NCBI GenBank assembly: GCA_019415335.1
Contig: DXKH01000095.1
Location: 1 to 6,671 of the forward strand
Direction of reading: 5' to 3'
From: Citrobacter sp.
GTDB taxonomy: Bacteria > Pseudomonadota > Gammaproteobacteria > Enterobacterales > Enterobacteriaceae
Length of the DNA: 6,671 bases
A program made the translations under genes and the position numbers. Positions 1,141-6,671 of the stretch are shown one piece after another (within the stretch, counting starts at the first letter, position 1; every line of letters starts with the position of its first letter). The notes beneath the pieces are model-generated. The model made no database searches and was not told the origin of the DNA. It saw only the letters and a list, made by a program, of their open reading frames with translations.

Positions 1141-1159
1141 CAAAACCTCATTATCATCT

Positions 1160-1195
1160 GGCCCGGTAGGCGCCTTGCGCCCGGGCCATCTTTTT
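1160..1195 (+). terminator. Rho-independent terminator of ilvC
   Basis: The stem GGCCCGG (1160-1166) pairs perfectly with CCGGGCC (1181-1187). An inner GCGC/GCGC helix with a CTT loop stacks on it (1170-1173 with 1177-1180), and ATCTTTTTA follows. It begins 19 bases after the ilvC stop. Seen from the minus strand the hairpin is followed by AGATGATAATG, which is not U-rich, so it is a good plus-strand terminator but a poor one for the convergent GntR gene. The stem also resembles the enterobacterial REP style (GCCCGGTAGGCGC), which I cannot test. Confidence 0.85.
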
Positions 1196-1224
1196 ATCTG
1201 CTTTTGACGGAGTTGCTGTTTTTT

Positions 1225-1884
1225 TTAGCCGAACTGTCCCCAATAAGCGCCTTTTTCCGGAAGAATATGTTCTTGCAGCGCCTGGAGCGCTTTTTCGGCA
1301 TCCGCATCCTGGATAGCCTGAATAATCGCGACATGCTGTTGATGAGAACGATGCATATGTTCGTCATTACTGCCAAGATAATTGCGGATTGTCGCCATCT
1401 GCGCAGAAATAAGCACGTAGGATTGCTGTAAATAGGCATTGCCGCAATAGGTGAATAATGCCTCGTGGAACAGATTATCGAGGCGAATATATTCATGTGT
1501 GGAATTATTTTCCAGACAAAACGTCATGTGATCGAGATAGGAGGATAATGCTTGTACCAGTTGGCGCTGATTGCGATGCAGGGACAGCCTCAGCGCTTTT
1601 GCCTCAACAAAATAACGAAACTCCAGCAGCCCGTTAAACTCAATATCGCTCAGGTTAAAAACAAAGGTTCCGCTTTTCGGGCGGATATGTACCAGCCCCT
1701 CGCTTTGTAGACGTCTCAAGGCGTCGCGTACCGGCGCTTTAGTGGAAGATAAACGAGTTGCCAGCGCTGATTCCGATATTTTACAGCCCATCGGTAATGT
1801 GCCGTTGATGATCATATCTCTGATACGACGATAAATAACGTCTTTGAGTAAGTCCGTTGTCATATTGATTGAAAATTCCGGCAT
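1225..1884 (-). CDS. GntR-family regulator, FadR/FCD subfamily
   Basis: This is a probable local repressor of the sugar-acid cassette. Of 219 residues, about 11-75 form a winged helix-turn-helix typical of GntR proteins: ISESALATRLSSTKAPVRDALRRL, then EGLVHIRPKSGTFV as the wing. Residues about 80-212 form the all-helical FCD ligand domain. The usual four metal/carboxylate-binding residues are visible as Asp136 and His140 (DNLFH), His184 (HVAIIQAI) and His206 (QEHI), plus Arg90 in the first FCD helix. Such proteins usually bind a small organic acid and leave DNA when it is bound. The gene is last in the run of five minus-strand genes, 143 bases beyond the kinase, and converges on ilvC. The start is uncertain: M1 has only a weak GAG ahead of it and M8 is also possible. 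The effector is unknown; family assignment is firm, while a role as repressor of this cassette is inferred from linkage and the palindromes upstream of the transporter. Confidence 0.92.
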   Translation of the reverse strand: MPEFSINMTTDLLKDVIYRRIRDMIINGTLPMGCKISESALATRLSSTKAPVRDALRRLQSEGLVHIRPKSGTFVFNLSDIEFNGLLEFRYFVEAKALRLSLHRNQRQLVQALSSYLDHMTFCLENNSTHEYIRLDNLFHEALFTYCGNAYLQQSYVLISAQMATIRNYLGSNDEHMHRSHQQHVAIIQAIQDADAEKALQALQEHILPEKGAYWGQFG

Positions 1885-2002
1885 GTTAACTCGGTAAGCA
1901 GCCGTTTGCGGCCAGCAATAGAGGTGACTGTATAACAGATTTGCGGGAATGGGAAAATGATATATGGCAACAAGTTGACACTGGTGTACTGAGCGAAATT
2001 AT
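1885..2002 (-). promoter_or_regulatory. Possible separate promoter of the GntR gene
   Basis: On the minus strand an extended -10 of the form TG-T-TATACA lies at 1937-1929. About 17 bases further upstream there is only a poor -35 (TTTTCC). The predicted transcript would have a 5' leader of roughly 40 bases. No copy of the TGACATGTCA palindrome found upstream of the transporter is present here; the nearest similarity is a TGACA/TGTCA half-site around 1976-1980. The regulator may therefore have a weak constitutive promoter, or depend on readthrough from the kinase. Evidence is by eye only. Confidence 0.3.
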
Positions 2003-2022
2003 GCCGCGCTGGCAGGCGCGGC
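2003..2022 (-). terminator. Hairpin after the kinase gene, possible weak terminator
   Basis: GCCGCGC (2003-2009) and GCGCGGC (2016-2022) form a perfect 7-bp all-GC stem with a 6-base loop. It starts 5 bases past the kinase stop codon. On the minus strand it is followed by ATAATTTCGC, a short and interrupted T-tract. It could terminate part of the transcription of the four enzyme/transporter genes and leave the regulator at lower level, or protect the 3' end of the mRNA. Confidence 0.5.
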
Positions 2023-2027
2023 ACAGA

Positions 2028-2966
2028 TTACTGTAATTGAGTTTGCTGGATCAAGATTTCAACTTGTGACTGGCGAGGAATGGGGGCAACTGCGCCATAA
2101 CCGGTTGTTGTCAGCGCAGCGGCGGCGTTGGCGTAGCACAGCGCCTCTTCCGGCGAATCACCTTTGATAATGCGGTAAAGAAAAGCACCCGAGAAGCAGT
2201 CCCCAGCCCCGGTCGCGTCGACGGTGGCGACTTTATGGCCAGAGTAGATGATTCGCCTGTTCTCATTGGCGAACATCGCGCCTTCCGCACCCATTTTTAA
2301 CACCACATTCTTTGCCCCGAGCTGGAGATAGAAATCCGTAATTTCATCTGCATGATGCTTCCCGGTTAGCAAACGGGCCTCATCGAGGCTAGGCATGCAG
2401 TAATCTACGTGGCGTATTGTTTCATGGATGATGGCGCGGGCGCGGGCTAACGGCCACAGTTTGAGCCGCAGATTGGTGTCGAAGGAAATCAGCGTTTGGT
2501 GCTTTTGGCACAGTTCAATAGCGTGAAAAAGCGCATCACTGACGTTATTGCCAATGGCGTGCGTGATGGCCGAACTGTGAAATAAGCGCGCGGCGGCAAT
2601 CGCGGACTCATTGATATCATCGACCGTCATCGTAGAGGCCGCAGAGCCTTTACGATAAAAGGTAAAGTGGTGGCCTTGTTCATTGTGAGAAATAAAATAG
2701 ATCCCCGTCGGGGCCATTTTATGCGTGCAAACCCATTGATGATCGACCTTTTCTTCATCCCATAATGCGCGGAATTTCTGCCCAAATATGTCGTCGCCAA
2801 GTCGGGTTAACATAGCAACTTTAGCGCCTTGTCGCGCCGCGCTAATGGCGAAATTCGATGTATCACCGCCAAATCCGCTGAGATAATGCTGCTCAGAATG
2901 CTCTGTGGGAAGCTGATTGAATTCAAAAAGCGGCTCACCAAATGAAAGAATATCGAACTGCTTCAT
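2028..2966 (-). CDS. PfkB-family sugar kinase, 2-keto-3-deoxygluconate kinase-like
   Basis: This is a predicted cytoplasmic ATP-dependent kinase for a sugar or sugar acid. The 312-residue protein has PfkB features: the N-terminal substrate lid with GFGGDTSNFA (31-40, Gly-Gly signature), and a C-terminal ATP/anion-hole motif DATGAGDCFSG (250-260) with Asp256 as the expected catalytic base. The segments GFGGDTxN, GDDxFGQKFRALW..ENVD-like (57-75) and FDTNLRLKLW (162-171; KdgK has FDNNYRPRLW) resemble E. coli KdgK more than ribokinase or fructokinase, suggesting a 2-keto-3-deoxy acid substrate. I chose ATG at 2966 because GGAG stands 6 bases ahead. The frame extends 11 codons upstream, but that ATG (2999) lies inside a hairpin and has no ribosome site. 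The gene sits 65 bases after the RraA-like gene. Kinase family is certain; substrate is inferred. Confidence 0.9.
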   Translation of the reverse strand: MKQFDILSFGEPLFEFNQLPTEHSEQHYLSGFGGDTSNFAISAARQGAKVAMLTRLGDDIFGQKFRALWDEEKVDHQWVCTHKMAPTGIYFISHNEQGHHFTFYRKGSAASTMTVDDINESAIAAARLFHSSAITHAIGNNVSDALFHAIELCQKHQTLISFDTNLRLKLWPLARARAIIHETIRHVDYCMPSLDEARLLTGKHHADEITDFYLQLGAKNVVLKMGAEGAMFANENRRIIYSGHKVATVDATGAGDCFSGAFLYRIIKGDSPEEALCYANAAAALTTTGYGAVAPIPRQSQVEILIQQTQLQ

Positions 2967-2972
2967 TACGTT

Positions 2973-2976
2973 CTCC
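2973..2976 (-). promoter_or_regulatory. Ribosome binding site that fixes the kinase start
   Basis: GGAG on the minus strand, 6 bases from the ATG at 2966. This supports the MKQFDILSFGE start over the ATG codons 4 and 11 codons further upstream, which have no comparable sequence in front. Confidence 0.75.
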
Positions 2977-2993
2977 ATGTGATAGTCTAGGCT

Positions 2994-3020
2994 CGCCATC
3001 GGCCAGATTGGCTGATGGCG
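2994..3020 (-). other. Long intercistronic stem-loop between RraA-like and kinase genes
   Basis: CGCCATC (2994-3000) pairs with GATGGCG (3014-3020). The helix continues inward through GCCA/TGGC (3002-3005 with 3009-3012) to a 3-base loop. In the minus-strand transcript this is 11 base pairs with one A-C mismatch at the 3001/3013 position. It lies 11 bases beyond the RraA-like stop codon and is not followed by a T-tract, so it is not a standard terminator. A role in mRNA stability, processing or setting the ratio of the two proteins is plausible but inferred. Confidence 0.6.
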
Positions 3021-3031
3021 GCATAGGAAGG

Positions 3032-3688
3032 TTAGATTCGGCCGTATTTCGCCAGGCCTTCACGCAGAGAACCAGACTGTATAATCAGTTTGGCCTGTTC
3101 CAGCTCGCGGCTATCAATGGATTGTGCCAGTGCTAATACTTCTGCTGCGACCGCCTGCGGTACGCACACCACGCCGTCGATATCCCCGACAATCAAATCT
3201 CCCGGATTCACCGTGACATCGCCGATGGTGACGGGCTGATTGGCTGAAATTGTTTTGAAACGACCAAGCGTAGTGCCTGGGGTTACCGTTTTGGCGTAAA
3301 CCGGGAAATCGTAATCGCGACGGATCTCCGCCAGGTCACGTACGCCGCCGTTCAACACTGCAGCTTCATGTTTATTGGCAACAGCCCCGGCGGTCATTAG
3401 CCCGCCCCAGACGGCAACGGTTTCCAGCGACGGATTTCCGGTAATGACGATGACCGAACCGCTGGCGGATTCGTCAATGGCGTCCAGCGCATGCTGCGGT
3501 GGCAGTTTTTCGTCGGTGACGTCTTCATAAATGGTGACGGCCGGGCCAACGATTTTTTTGTCGTTGATGCGGTTTTTGATTTCAAAAGGCAGGAACATCG
3601 TTTTGCCCAGGATCTGATCGCAGGCGTCAGCGACAGAAGCGGTCGAAAAAATAGTGCGAAAACCGTCGATAATATTTTTGCTGTACAT
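3032..3688 (-). CDS. RraA-like protein / HMG-CHA aldolase-fold family
   Basis: This is a 218-residue protein of the family that includes the RNase E inhibitor RraA (once called MenG) and class II pyruvate aldolases such as 4-hydroxy-4-methyl-2-oxoglutarate aldolase. Typical landmarks are STASVADACDQ near the N-terminus (15-25), VGPAVTIY (47-54), the NGGVRDL motif with Arg117-Asp118 (substrate carbonyl and metal), PGTTLGRFK (137-145) and the PGDLIVGDIDGVVCVP strand region (162-177). Placed in a catabolic operon, an aldolase or decarboxylase releasing pyruvate is more likely than RNase E control. However, the acidic residue expected 21 positions before the Arg in the D-X20-R-D aldolase motif is Gly96 here (WGGLM), so the chemistry is uncertain. 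The start at 3688 has GAGG 7 bases upstream; the frame is open a further 69 codons but overlaps the dehydrogenase gene. It begins 31 bases after the dehydrogenase stop, implying co-transcription. Confidence 0.85.
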   Translation of the reverse strand: MYSKNIIDGFRTIFSTASVADACDQILGKTMFLPFEIKNRINDKKIVGPAVTIYEDVTDEKLPPQHALDAIDESASGSVIVITGNPSLETVAVWGGLMTAGAVANKHEAAVLNGGVRDLAEIRRDYDFPVYAKTVTPGTTLGRFKTISANQPVTIGDVTVNPGDLIVGDIDGVVCVPQAVAAEVLALAQSIDSRELEQAKLIIQSGSLREGLAKYGRI

Positions 3689-3695
3689 AACTCTT

Positions 3696-3699
3696 CCTC
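3696..3699 (-). promoter_or_regulatory. Ribosome binding site that fixes the RraA-like start
   Basis: GAGG within AGAGGA on the minus strand, 7 bases ahead of the ATG at 3688. It rules in MYSKNIIDGF as the N-terminus and rules out the longer open frame that runs into the dehydrogenase gene. Confidence 0.8.
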
Positions 3700-3719
3700 T
3701 CTTTATAGCGAATACGAAT

Positions 3720-4679
3720 TTATGGATTAACCCAATTAAGCGGATGCTCGCCTTCAAACGCCCGACGCACTTCATGCGCGGCTTTACTTTGCAACTCGAC
3801 CACCGACTCTTCGGTAAACCAGGCGGTGTGGTCCGTACATAAGGTGTTATCCATTTGCAGCAATGGACTTTTTGCACTGAGGGGTTCGGATTCAAAAACG
3901 TCGAGTCCGGCGGCGAAAATGCGCTGTTGTAGCAGGGCGTTGATCAGCGCCTGCTCATCGATAAGCCCGCCGCGTGAGGTATTGACCAGTACGGCGCTGG
4001 GCTTCATTTTGGCCAGTTCGGCTTCACCGATAAGATGATGGGTGTCCGGGGTTAGCGGGGCGTGAAGAGAAATGAAGTCCGCTTCACGGCACAGCGTATC
4101 GAGATTGACTCGCGTCACGCCTGCTTGTGAAGCCTGTTTATCGGTAAGTAGCGGATCAACTACCAGGATGCGCTTAAAGCCGATCCCTGATGCTTTTTGT
4201 ACAAAGCAGCGGGAGATCCGGCCAAAACCGACGACGCCGAGAATTTTTCCCGCCAGGCGGAACATAGGTTCGCGCTGGCCAATTCCCCACTGACCATCGC
4301 GAACATCACGGTTGCGGGTGGCGATACGGCGTGTTGCGGCCAGTAGTAACGCCAGAGCGTGCTCAGCAACATCTTCCGAGCCGTAGTCTGGTACGTTAGC
4401 GACGTAAATACCTTTTTCTTTGGCGGCCTGGCTATCGATATTGTCTACGCCGACGCCATAGCGCACGATAACGCGGCATTGCTGCATCGCTTCAATCATA
4501 GGGCGACTGACGGTTGCTTCGCGGACCATGATGGCGTCAGCATTGCTTACCTGGCGCAGTTTTTCTTCCAGTGAAGCGTTTGCTGGAACAACAACAAACT
4601 GCGGATCCCAATCCTGTAAAATATTTTCTTCTGCAGAATAATTTAAATATCCAGGTTTAATAACTACTATTTTCTTCAT
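3720..4679 (-). CDS. NAD-dependent D-2-hydroxyacid dehydrogenase (PGDH/CtBP-like)
   Basis: This is a predicted cytoplasmic oxidoreductase interconverting a D-2-hydroxy acid and its 2-oxo acid. It has 319 residues, full length for the family without the ACT domain of SerA. The substrate half holds VRYGVGVDNID (72-82). The Rossmann segment is GKILGVVGFGRISR (144-157, dinucleotide motif G-F-G-R-I). The strand ending VVDP puts Asp175 where an acidic residue favours NAD over NADP. The catalytic triad is Arg236 (NTSRGG), Glu265 (FESEP) and His284 (in DHTAW); the HTAW form is shared with CtBP-like and 'phosphoglycerate dehydrogenase' annotated members. NAD use fits oxidation of an imported 2-hydroxy acid. 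The start ATG at 4679 has a modest GGTAG-type ribosome site, and an AT-rich 115-base gap separates it from the transporter gene. It is not SerA; the substrate is unknown. Confidence 0.92.
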   Translation of the reverse strand: MKKIVVIKPGYLNYSAEENILQDWDPQFVVVPANASLEEKLRQVSNADAIMVREATVSRPMIEAMQQCRVIVRYGVGVDNIDSQAAKEKGIYVANVPDYGSEDVAEHALALLLAATRRIATRNRDVRDGQWGIGQREPMFRLAGKILGVVGFGRISRCFVQKASGIGFKRILVVDPLLTDKQASQAGVTRVNLDTLCREADFISLHAPLTPDTHHLIGEAELAKMKPSAVLVNTSRGGLIDEQALINALLQQRIFAAGLDVFESEPLSAKSPLLQMDNTLCTDHTAWFTEESVVELQSKAAHEVRRAFEGEHPLNWVNP

Positions 4680-4794
4680 AATATCTACCGTTCTTAATTA
4701 TAAAATTAAGTGTTTTAATTTCTACGGCTGTAGTTCGCCGCATCCTGAAAACAGAATGTGAAATTAATGAATGTTTTGTTTGTGGTTTATATCA
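4680..4794 (-). promoter_or_regulatory. AT-rich gap with possible internal promoter
   Basis: A perfect TATAAT lies on the minus strand at 4702-4697, within a perfect inverted repeat CTTAATT-ATAA-AATTAAG (4693-4710). No convincing -35 stands 16-18 bases upstream (best is GTAGAA or CGTAGA), so promoter activity is uncertain. A second small inverted repeat, CTAC/GTAG, lies just upstream. There is no T-tract terminator after the transporter stop, so readthrough is expected. No TGACATGTCA palindrome is present here. Confidence 0.3.
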
Positions 4795-6132
4795 TCACAG
4801 AGTAACGGGTTTGGCGTCCACGATAGCTATATTCTTTAACCAGCGGACAATTAATATTGTGACGATCCCGCCGATTAGCATAACCGCGCTTAAATATAAC
4901 ATCGGTGCCGAGTCGCTTTTTTCTAAATCACGTACCAGAGGGATGGTGTTTTGCGCGAAAAATCCCCCCAGATTTGCCAGTGAATTAATAATAGCAATGC
5001 CTGCAGCCGCCGTTGCGCCTGAAAGAAATTTCGTTAAATTCCAGAAGCAGGGTTGAATTGCAAATACTGATAATACAACGCCGCAAATACAGATGAAGCT
5101 AATAACCGGCTGGGCGAATGTCCAGACCGAGAGCAGCAGACATATTGCAGCGGTGAACATAGGTAATGCGACATTAATATAAGGATTCTCGGTACGTTCT
5201 GGCTTACTGGTTATCCAGCGCAGCATGATGATAACCATCGCCCATGGGATCATATTGACCAGACCATTCATCATATCCGAGGCACCGAACGTTTTAACAA
5301 TAGTTGGCATCCAGTAGCTGATACCGTAGGCACCAAAGCAGATGAACCCGTATACCAGCGCGAGGGCCAGAACACGCCAGTCGGTCAGCGATTTACCCAG
5401 GCTGTTGACCGATTTATCGGTGTTGGCATCCTGTTCGGCGGCCAGTTTTTTAATCAACCAGCTCTTCTCTTCCGCATTCAAGAAGCGAGCCTGTTCCGGT
5501 CCTTGCGGAAACCATAGCAGCACTGGGGCAATCAGCAGAAGTGCAAGCATCCCCGTCGCCAGGAATAACCACTGCCATCCTTCCAGCCCCATAAAGCCGT
5601 GCATGCTAAGCAGTGAGCCGTTAATTGGGGCACCAATCATATTTGCCACCATGCTGGCGGTGACTAAAAAGCCGACAATACGTGGACGATACTTTAAAGG
5701 GAACCATTTGGTAGAATAGTAAATTAGCCCAGGGTAAAAGCTGGCTTCGGCAACACCAAGAATAAAACGCAAAGTATAAAATGTTGACATTTTTTCGGTC
5801 CACGCCAGCGCCATAGTAATAACTCCCCATGACAACAGGCTAATAGTGAACCAGCGTTTAGCACCTACCTTCGATAAAATTAAATTTCCGGGAACGCTAA
5901 AAACCAAATAACCGATGAAAAAAAGTGATGCGCCGAGGCCAAAAGCTGCTTCACTCCAGCCCAGGCTATCTACCATTTGTAATTTAGCAAAACTGATATT
6001 CTGACGATCTATATACGCCACGATGTACATCAATACCATCAGTGGAACAAGTTCCCTGGTTGTTTTTGTTACGATGATTTTTTCTAAATCATTTTTTGCA
6101 TCCAGGGACTGTTGCTGTATTGAATGACTCAT
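4795..6132 (-). CDS. MFS transporter, anion:cation symporter (ACS) type
   Basis: This is an inner-membrane major facilitator, probably a proton symporter for a sugar acid or similar carboxylate. It has 445 residues and about 12 hydrophobic segments: six before and six after a hydrophilic central loop (about 209-252). ACS-family marks are YIVAYIDRQNISFAK (36-50; the D-R-x-N-I motif), the short loop GAKRW (90-94) between helices 2 and 3, and LRFILGVAEASFYPGLIYYSTKWFP (about 121-145). Relatives in this family carry hexuronates, galactonate, glucarate, phthalate or tartrate, so the sequence limits the substrate to organic anions only. I chose ATG at 6132 (MSHSIQQQSL) with AGGA 10 bases ahead. A longer frame adds 22 codons rich in charged residues with no ribosome site. 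It is the first gene after the operator-rich region and so heads the probable operon. Confidence 0.93.
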   Translation of the reverse strand: MSHSIQQQSLDAKNDLEKIIVTKTTRELVPLMVLMYIVAYIDRQNISFAKLQMVDSLGWSEAAFGLGASLFFIGYLVFSVPGNLILSKVGAKRWFTISLLSWGVITMALAWTEKMSTFYTLRFILGVAEASFYPGLIYYSTKWFPLKYRPRIVGFLVTASMVANMIGAPINGSLLSMHGFMGLEGWQWLFLATGMLALLLIAPVLLWFPQGPEQARFLNAEEKSWLIKKLAAEQDANTDKSVNSLGKSLTDWRVLALALVYGFICFGAYGISYWMPTIVKTFGASDMMNGLVNMIPWAMVIIMLRWITSKPERTENPYINVALPMFTAAICLLLSVWTFAQPVISFICICGVVLSVFAIQPCFWNLTKFLSGATAAAGIAIINSLANLGGFFAQNTIPLVRDLEKSDSAPMLYLSAVMLIGGIVTILIVRWLKNIAIVDAKPVTL

Positions 6133-6142
6133 AACACGTGTT
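6133..6142. repeat. Palindrome AACACGTGTT between ribosome site and transporter start
   Basis: A perfect 10-base palindrome fills exactly the spacer between AGGA (6143-6146) and the ATG of the transporter. It differs from the upstream TGACATGTCA palindromes and may be chance. If structured in RNA it could shorten the effective distance between the ribosome site and the start. Confidence 0.4.
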
Positions 6143-6192
6143 TCCTGAATAAAGTCATAAGATCTGGCGCTCGTCCTCACACCATTGCACGG

Positions 6193-6208
6193 AGACAAGA
6201 TTTTGTCT
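6193..6208 (-). repeat. Leader inverted repeat AGACAA / TTGTCT
   Basis: Perfect 6-base arms (6193-6198 and 6203-6208) with a 4-base centre. It lies in the predicted 5' leader of the transporter mRNA, about 60 bases before the start codon. It contains GACA and TGTC half-sites like the upstream palindromes but with wider spacing, so it could be a weak operator variant or a small RNA hairpin. Support is only the symmetry. Confidence 0.35.
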
Positions 6209-6240
6209 GTATAGAGACGCCGTTGTTTTAGCCAGTTGAG

Positions 6241-6269
6241 ATATTATTACCTAAACTGACATGTCACAA
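6241..6269 (-). promoter_or_regulatory. Likely main promoter of the transporter operon
   Basis: On the minus strand TTGTGA (6269-6264; 4 of 6 to the -35 consensus) is separated by exactly 17 bases from TAATAT (6246-6241; 4 of 6). AATAAT (5 of 6) overlaps two bases earlier. Transcription would begin near 6234 and give a leader of about 100 bases. The first TGACATGTCA palindrome overlaps the -35 and spacer, which is where a repressor would block polymerase. The element scores are modest, as expected for a promoter needing an activator; assignment is by eye. Confidence 0.45.
6257..6266. promoter_or_regulatory. Operator-like palindrome copy 1 (TGACATGTCA)
   Basis: Perfect 10-base palindrome located between and partly over the -35 and -10 of the predicted transporter promoter. 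It is identical to copy 2. A short dyad fits what GntR/FadR-type dimers usually recognise, and a GntR-family gene is in the same cassette. Binding is inferred. Confidence 0.6.
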
Positions 6270-6353
6270 AGATATCACTCATTTTTTATGTGGCGACAGG
6301 ATGTGTAGAAACTTGCTGCTTTGATCACAGTTAATGGCGATAAAAGTGCTTTT

Positions 6354-6375
6354 TAGTGTGATGTTTGTCACTAAA
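6354..6375 (-). promoter_or_regulatory. CRP-like site
   Basis: TGTGA (6357-6361), six bases, then TCACT (6368-6372). This is one mismatch from the CRP core TGTGA-N6-TCACA. It lies within a larger perfect dyad of 9-base arms, TTTTTAGTG (6350-6358) and CACTAAAAA (6369-6377). The centre (6364.5) is about 130 bases upstream of the predicted start near 6234, further than simple class I or II CRP promoters. It may therefore act with DNA bending or serve a nearer unrecognised promoter. CRP control would suit a sugar-acid operon. Confidence 0.45.
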
Positions 6376-6397
6376 AAATGGGCTGAATAATATTTTT

Positions 6398-6407
6398 TGA
6401 CATGTCA
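6398..6407. promoter_or_regulatory. Operator-like palindrome copy 2 (TGACATGTCA)
   Basis: Second perfect copy, centre-to-centre 141 bases upstream of copy 1. It is followed on the minus strand by A-rich DNA and a TATTAT hexamer (6392-6387), which could be a second -10 without a good -35. It shares the extended flank TGTCAGAT with copy 3. Confidence 0.6.
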
Positions 6408-6492
6408 GATTTGAGGTTTGTGAATGCAATAAATCACACTGTTGCAGTGGGTTGGCGCGTTAATCATGGAATAAGGGATATTTTTTTATAAC

Positions 6493-6502
6493 TAACATGT
6501 CA
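6493..6502. promoter_or_regulatory. Operator-like palindrome copy 3 (one mismatch, TAACATGTCA)
   Basis: One base differs from copies 1 and 2. The centre is 95 bases upstream of copy 2, and the shared flank CAGATT extends the similarity to copy 2. It lies 5 bases from the hairpin after ppiC, at the outer edge of the regulatory region. Either an auxiliary operator or a decayed one. Confidence 0.5.
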
Positions 6503-6507
6503 GATTG

Positions 6508-6530
6508 TGGCCCTTGTCAGGAAAGGGCCA
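6508..6530 (-). terminator. Hairpin after ppiC, possible terminator
   Basis: TGGCCCTT (6508-6515) pairs perfectly with AAGGGCCA (6523-6530) around a 7-base loop, 6 bases beyond the ppiC stop. The minus-strand sequence after it (ACAATCTGACA) lacks a T-run, so intrinsic termination would be weak. Some readthrough from ppiC into the cassette is possible. Confidence 0.45.
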
Positions 6531-6536
6531 GCCTGA

Positions 6537-6671
<135 letters not shown>

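Follow-up and report, generated by a model that had tools for sequence, protein, structure and literature searches.

Three palindromes with an AC..GT core upstream of an accessory transporter-dehydrogenase operon: very probable operators of the operon's own GntR/FCD regulator

The accessory operon and its insertion site

The window (the whole stretch of DNA analysed here, 6,671 nucleotides) contains five genes on the minus strand that, judging from their order and orientation, are likely to form a single operon. The first encodes an MFS transporter (4795..6132; Pfam MFS_1) whose best NCBIfam match, under the cut-off, is the D-galactonate transporter family. It is followed by genes for a D-isomer 2-hydroxyacid dehydrogenase (DH; 3720..4679, annotated as 'C-terminal binding protein'), an RraA-like/aldolase family protein (3032..3688), a PfkB-family sugar kinase (ORF 2028..2975, with the annotated start slightly inside it; best NCBIfam match 2-dehydro-3-deoxygluconokinase, under the cut-off) and a GntR/FCD regulator, the proposed binder of the palindromes described below (1225..1863). 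The regulator start at 1863 follows the annotation and most aligned relatives, the longest ORF beginning at 1884; the regulator gene would thus be the last one of the operon that it is proposed to control. The substrate of the operon is probably a sugar acid, as suggested by the enzyme families and by lactonase-type genes found near some relatives. Among the matches listed in searches of the open-access literature for the pathway of the operon or for ilvC/ppiC/RraA/GntR, nothing relevant was found.

The window is part of an E. coli chromosome. The operon is an accessory one, found at the ilvC-ppiC junction of 31 of 5426 complete E. coli genomes (1141-6532 in the window), where it replaces a short gap. 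In the one empty site that was read, this gap is 45 bp long, and the homology of empty sites to positions 6133-6671 starts at about 6533-6536 (11 of the 12 rows listed; 5327 genomes matched); therefore, the inserted segment includes all three palindromes. Klebsiella spallanzanii carries the same operon at the same site, with 93.6% DNA identity over 5453 aligned bases and 100% amino-acid identity of the regulator.

Palindromes in the transporter upstream region

Three related palindromes are located in the gene-free DNA that separates the start codon of the MFS gene (6132) from the stop codon of ppiC (6541). Copy 1, proximal to the transporter, spans 6253..6270 (TTTGTGACATGTCAGTTT on the minus strand) with a perfect TGACATGTCA core at 6257-6266; copy 2 (6394..6411, plus strand, TTTTTGACATGTCAGATT), 141 bp from copy 1, has the same perfect core TGACATGTCA at 6398-6407, and copy 3 (6489..6506, plus strand, TAACTAACATGTCAGATT), 95 bp from copy 2, has the one-mismatch core TAACATGTCA at 6493-6502. 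The preliminary description, which placed two perfect palindromes and a one-mismatch copy within 246 bases of gene-free DNA, was exact in its positions and in noticing no perfect copy elsewhere in the window: a search allowing up to two mismatches to TGACATGTCA returns these three and none besides. This looser count is uninformative because chance alone gives 2.73 such matches in the whole window (100 of 200 shuffles reach three), and about 0.01 perfect copies are expected there. The probability that any 10-bp perfect palindrome occurs twice in a 408-bp stretch is about 0.00025, in agreement with the earlier view that a chance repeat is very unlikely; for a repeat within 246 bp anywhere in the window it is about 0.0125.

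The 10-bp cores, as originally described, are part of a larger conserved site of about 18 bp that had been overlooked, and the reversed copy 1 is identical to copy 2 at 16 of 18 positions. The A-for-G change of copy 3 is also frequent in orthologous sites (36%), and the copy 1 form TTTGTGACATGTCAG is common to Klebsiella and 4 of the 6 distinct Pantoea MFS promoters (L004, L042, L043 and L055, with L044 being the same plasmid as L055). Of 424 aligned positions in the promoter regions of E. coli and K. spallanzanii, 57 are different, yet all three 10-bp cores are identical. Between copies 1 and 2, on the plus strand, there is also a CRP-like site (6357..6372, TGTGATGTTTGTCACT), its centre 103 bp from that of copy 1, in which 9 of the 10 half-site letters match the CRP consensus.

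Comparison of six of the 31 E. coli genomes with the window revealed 14 variable columns within 6240-6532. Only one of these falls within the 54 operator positions (6406 in copy 2, C>T in 2 of the 6 genomes, which yields the TGACATGTTA form used elsewhere), and the CRP-like site contains two, both in its 6-bp spacer. This pattern is consistent with constraint, the changes being too few for proof. The promoter of the operon was not located in E. coli, the promoter scan listing plus-strand candidates only; by eye, a weak -35-like TTGTGA inside copy 1 is separated from TAATAT by a 17-base spacer in E. coli and by a shorter one in Klebsiella.

Conservation of the sites in other bacteria

Twenty-four regions, each the 400 bp upstream of a DH or MFS gene, were scored with a matrix whose training set was limited to the six sites of E. 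coli and Klebsiella. The regions come from 18 loci that all carry both the dehydrogenase operon and a relative of the regulator: six from Pantoea, two from Pseudovibrio, five from Vibrionaceae, Succinatimonas and one family relative, Conservatibacter, and two distant Pseudovibrio-type loci. Matches were found in all 24 regions, 54 in total (shuffled regions: mean 2.3, maximum 8), and 23 regions contain at least 2 sites. The co-occurrence of regulator and sites is partly by construction, given that most of the loci were collected through this regulator. Footprinting upstream of orthologous transporter genes had been proposed as the check, and absence of the palindromes from orthologous loci with the same regulator as the outcome that would speak against operators; across these 18 loci, none of the 24 regions lacks the sites.

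Thirteen loci came from genome contigs (where L014, 33% identical over 66 residues, is unrelated and was left out) and the others from whole genomes and plasmid records. For L013 and L051, the gene coordinates are alignment starts rather than start codons, and from the plasmid shared by L044 and L055 only L055 was counted. The short loci L015-L039 are duplicates of others or superseded by longer stretches. L045 covers a contig end and lacks the operon, and L098 is another part of that contig. The stretches L094, L095-L097, L098 and L099 stand outside the 24-region count and were scored with a 22-site matrix trained on several loci.

Altogether, 87 sites (58 distinct) were collected from 26 loci, including the training loci and later-found ones, and yield the 18-bp consensus AATCTGACATGTCAGATT. 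Common substitutions are G to A at core position 2 (36%) and C to A at core position 4 (24%), mirrored in the other half. The geometry is that of the canonical GntR operator CTGGTATACCAG, with the core AC..GT in place of GT..AC: in the motif CTGACATGTCAG, the outer CTG..CAG and the central AT are kept, and only the GT..AC is changed to AC..GT. None of the 116 half-sites (58 distinct sites, both strands) has GT at the core, which is partly by construction since the sites were picked with the matrix. The sites of the FadR subfamily consist of TKGT/ACMA boxes (PMC4494728). The GntR/FadR operator consensus has a GT-N2/3-AC core where the present sites have AC-AT-GT, and accordingly we do not classify them as canonical GntR operators.

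The preliminary description also suggested an undescribed regulator-operator pair. The DNA word is indeed unusual: no bacterial-regulator paper appeared among the matches listed for TGACATGTCA, judging by titles and the beginnings of abstracts, and this motif was not found for a GntR regulator among the matches listed in the open-access literature searched, including queries for GntR with TGACA or TGTCA. The kind of switch, on the other hand, is ordinary.

The regulator and the proposed switch

The regulator contains an N-terminal GntR winged helix-turn-helix domain (PF00392, 64.2 bits) and a C-terminal FCD domain (PF07729, 85.9 bits), both above the cut-off, and thus belongs to the GntR/FCD family. 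In the AlphaFold2 model (mean pLDDT 91.4), the winged helix-turn-helix is followed, after the wing, by six FCD helices; the predicted fold lacks the extra helix of the FadR group, which places the protein in the VanR group by the feature used in two studies (PMC7797058, PMC12042122). The best fold matches of the model include a Brucella GntR protein (TM-score 0.77), PmiR (0.69-0.71) and Atu1419 (0.54-0.62). Among the 14 NCBIfam families matched, none of the named regulators (PhnR, NanR, CsiR, LldR and others) exceeds the curated cut-off, the best being phnR_burk with 108.8 bits against a cut-off of 271.5. In metal-dependent FCD regulators, an Asp or Asn and three His hold a metal ion. The residues D136, H140, H184 and H206, candidates for this metal site, are invariant in all 39 aligned sequences (alignment A1, in which the window protein was joined by 38 hits out of 72) and fit a carboxylate effector bound at the putative site.

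The recognition residues differ between operon-linked regulators and a clade of paralogues (L046-L050, mostly from Pantoea, with 37-38% identity) in which CTGGTATACCAG or CTGGTATATCAG precedes the clade's own dehydrogenase gene. At the positions of FadR Arg35, Arg45 and Thr46, the window protein has Ser39, Lys49 and Ala50; the equivalence of position 39 comes from an alignment by eye, and that of positions 49 and 50 rests on the alignment with Atu1419. Position 39 is Arg in the paralogous clade and Ser, Thr or Asn in the operon-linked regulators, whereas position 50 is Thr in the former and Ala or Ser in the latter. The changes at these two positions may correspond to the base changes in the core. 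Lys49 cannot explain the difference because it is common to the paralogous clade with its canonical-looking sites, and position 39 alone is not decisive because Atu1419, with Val as the equivalent of Arg35, still reads GT..AC; the idea that the core change follows from the loss of both FadR arginines is weakened on both counts.

Since the same sites recur before the same genes in other bacteria, the palindromes are very probably bound by the neighboring GntR-type repressor, a pairing that we infer from genome comparison. Specifically, we propose, with a probability of roughly 0.87, that the three palindromes are operators of the operon's own VanR-type GntR/FCD regulator, which would repress the operon until an inducer binds. 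In the absence of the inducer, regulator dimers would occupy the sites of about 18 bp upstream of the transporter gene and keep the operon repressed; an acidic intermediate of the substrate, the latter probably being a sugar acid, would then bind the conserved metal site and release the dimers, with CRP as the probable activator.

Spacing of the sites and possible DNA looping

Dimers bound at two sites might also join into a tetramer that loops the DNA around the CRP site, an extension to which we assign about even odds. In 34 promoters, the distances between the centers of the proximal site and its partner are 97-98, 132, 140-143, 151-153, 172-174, 176 and 182 bp (the partner site in L055 is weak, with a score of 11.9), and inner distances of 111 and 121 are found in L090, L009, L010, L040 and L094. 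These values cluster at helical steps of 10.5 bp, with R = 0.78 for 13 hand-collapsed values (Rayleigh ~0.0004; 0.0001 against jittered values) and R = 0.91 (0.00045) for seven taxon groups, and 10.75 bp per turn fits equally well (R = 0.79); these statistics are optimistic because of the relatedness of the loci and the choice of pairs, both the partner sites and the lineage collapse having been picked by hand after several definitions were tried. The phase is near a half turn; for two sites on the same helical face this would not be the first expectation, and it could reflect protein geometry or bending inside a loop; the 97-98 bp pairs of Pantoea and the 176 bp pairs fit it poorly.

In 30 of the 34 promoters, the interval between the two sites includes a CRP-like site matching 8 or more of the 10 letters, the exceptions being L005, L007, L013 and, of the MFS promoters of L054, the second one. 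The best such site is located at 69-73 bp in 15 of 19 DH promoters (in L007, with 7 letters only) and at 101-103 bp in 8 of 9 MFS promoters. The combination of spacing steps of about 10.5 bp with an enclosed CRP-like site suggests DNA looping as in Atu1419.

Alternatively, the same regulator might act at the same sites one by one, through local blocking or at separate divergent promoters, without looping. We consider this somewhat less than an even bet and yet a serious rival, because in the six Vibrio-type loci checked (L005, L007, L008, L009, L010 and L012) the distal site is within about 30 bp of a divergent start or overlaps it, so that the spacing might arise from two promoters repressed independently; the two divergent genes tested among these six encode DctP-type TRAP solute-binding proteins. 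Separate double sites are also common in divergons of the FadR subfamily (PMC4494728). Such an arrangement would not readily account for the clustering of the spacings at helical steps, nor for E. coli and Klebsiella, where three sites precede one operon and there is no divergent gene.

Sites away from the linked operon

The identification of the local GntR/FCD protein as the candidate binder, already made in the preliminary description, gains support from the 24 footprinted regions and from two kinds of loci where the sites are separated from the regulator gene, both as predicted for a true regulon. In genome G010, the regulator (L011) is unlinked to the operon, and a search with the RraA protein, independent of the regulator, found the DH/RraA operon on another contig (L094), with four sites (2017, 2048, 2169 and 2201) in the gap to a divergent DctP-type TRAP transporter gene. 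Furthermore, a conserved site pair precedes a second MFS gene in a distant part of the same contig in 4 of the 6 Pantoea genomes searched (5543-5703 in L099), as read in all four. In the one annotated record, the neighbors of this pair are a ChrR-cupin ('2,4'-dihydroxyacetophenone dioxygenase family') and SDR enzymes, families also found inside the related operon of Rhizobium etli; the pair is a possible extra branch of the regulon.

Two Pantoea versions (L054 2837-4072 and L055 389-1627) include an added divergent gene with a site less than 50 bp from its start, encoding an 'L-dopachrome tautomerase-related' protein (Pfam MRJP, with a weak SMP-30/gluconolactonase match) that is a possible lactonase. 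The two operators in the Pantoea MFS-dehydrogenase gap are absent from E. coli and Klebsiella (window 4680-4794), where the palindrome CTTAATTTTATAATTAAG precedes the dehydrogenase gene instead. In the vicinity of the operon of Pantoea At-9b, genes for an S-type pyocin domain protein and an immunity protein are present (L055 12377-14989).

Among the relatives of the regulator without a linked operon (twelve loci: L011 and L079-L089), eight have no site scoring at least 10. A near-perfect site (ATTCTGACATGTCAGATT, score 28.2) is found at 3098-3115 in L085, in whose genome a protein search found no RraA gene, and weak sites are present in L080 (14.4), L088 (13.1) and L089 (10.9), those of L080 and L088 being close to the regulator gene. 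The RraA gene was found in 3 of the 16 Succinivibrionaceae-type genomes that carry a relative of the regulator; of the 13 operon-free ones, 11 were read in longer stretches (G1241 and G1244 were left out), and in 9 of these 11 regulators position 39 is Arg, unlike in the operon-linked ones. The loci of more distant regulators (32-40% identity) are mixed: L013 and L051 have sites, L053 has one (16.1) and L056 a single weak one (11.6), and no matrix site was found in L046-L050, L052 and L057. The bare 10-mer occurs at 35 places in 12 genomes, 7 of them at operon loci (19 for the reversed control), and five stretches with 10 of the other copies contain no matrix match of at least 11; therefore, the flanks matter. 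The degenerate 14-mer WCTRAMATKTYAGW is genome-wide moderately above its reversed control (33 genomes, among the matches listed).

Conservation by itself does not name the binder, the other regulators of these genomes have been partly surveyed, and two more GntR genes are located nearby in Pantoea SO10; nevertheless, we regard binding by a different DNA-binding protein as improbable, given that the sites accompany operon-linked members of the regulator clade in 18 of 18 loci, that only one weak site (11.6) is found for a Rhizobium operon whose regulator is 38.7% identical, and that the paralogous clade has palindromes of another kind. Chance repeats or structural DNA such as a terminator or an insertion remnant, which might be suspected because copy 3 adjoins a hairpin after ppiC and some flanking bases are common to copies 2 and 3, are far less probable still and were dropped as contradicted by the recurrence of the sites in every footprinted region, from Pantoea, Vibrionaceae and Conservatibacter to Pseudovibrio, and by the low chance of the repeat itself.

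Implications and comparison with known systems

Returning to control by the operon's own regulator, its most extended form is tentative, and we give it about one chance in three: a subclade of FCD regulators might have exchanged GT..AC for AC..GT, with changed recognition residues, and might control an unnamed, probably sugar-acid pathway by tetramer loops around a CRP site, in a helical register kept from E. coli to Pseudovibrio. The predicted regulator-operator pair with a changed core, together with a paralogue that has a canonical core, appears well suited for the study of a specificity switch in the GntR recognition helix, with TGACATGTCA and TGGTATACCA as contrasting targets for this regulator and the paralogue (residues 39 and 50), and the natural series of spacers from 97 to 182 bp is suited for the study of looping by an FCD repressor. 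In addition, the predicted regulon brings together genes of a catabolic pathway that is uncharacterised and occurs in a small fraction of E. coli.

Among characterized systems, Atu1419 of Agrobacterium fabrum, which is second by E-value in the fold search and matches the regulator in a sequence-profile comparison (1e-16), is a tetrameric VanR-type FCD GntR regulator with two palindromes 190 bp apart and loops seen by electron microscopy (PMC7797058). It shares with the window regulator the VanR-type FCD fold, 10-bp palindromes and paired sites in one promoter region, and it has a metal site with three His, for which candidate residues are conserved here. However, its operator ATGTATACAT has the canonical GT..AC, contacted by Arg45, in contrast to the AC..GT core and the aligned Lys here, and its loops were observed with the tetramer, whereas looping in the present case is suggested by spacing statistics. 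The operators of the FadR subfamily have the same palindrome size but GT..AC where the present sites have AC..GT (PMC4494728), and the CTGGTATACCAG of the Pantoea paralogue has the same outer CTG..CAG and central AT as the present motif. AlkR of Pseudomonas aeruginosa, another VanR-type FCD repressor, likewise controls a catabolic gene through a palindromic operator; it has one main site, ATTGTCAGACAAT, and is released by long-chain acyl-CoA (PMC12042122), compared to three sites here. Thus, the proposed pair resembles Atu1419 in fold and in the arrangement of the sites, but is set apart by a core that departs from the canonical operator consensus.
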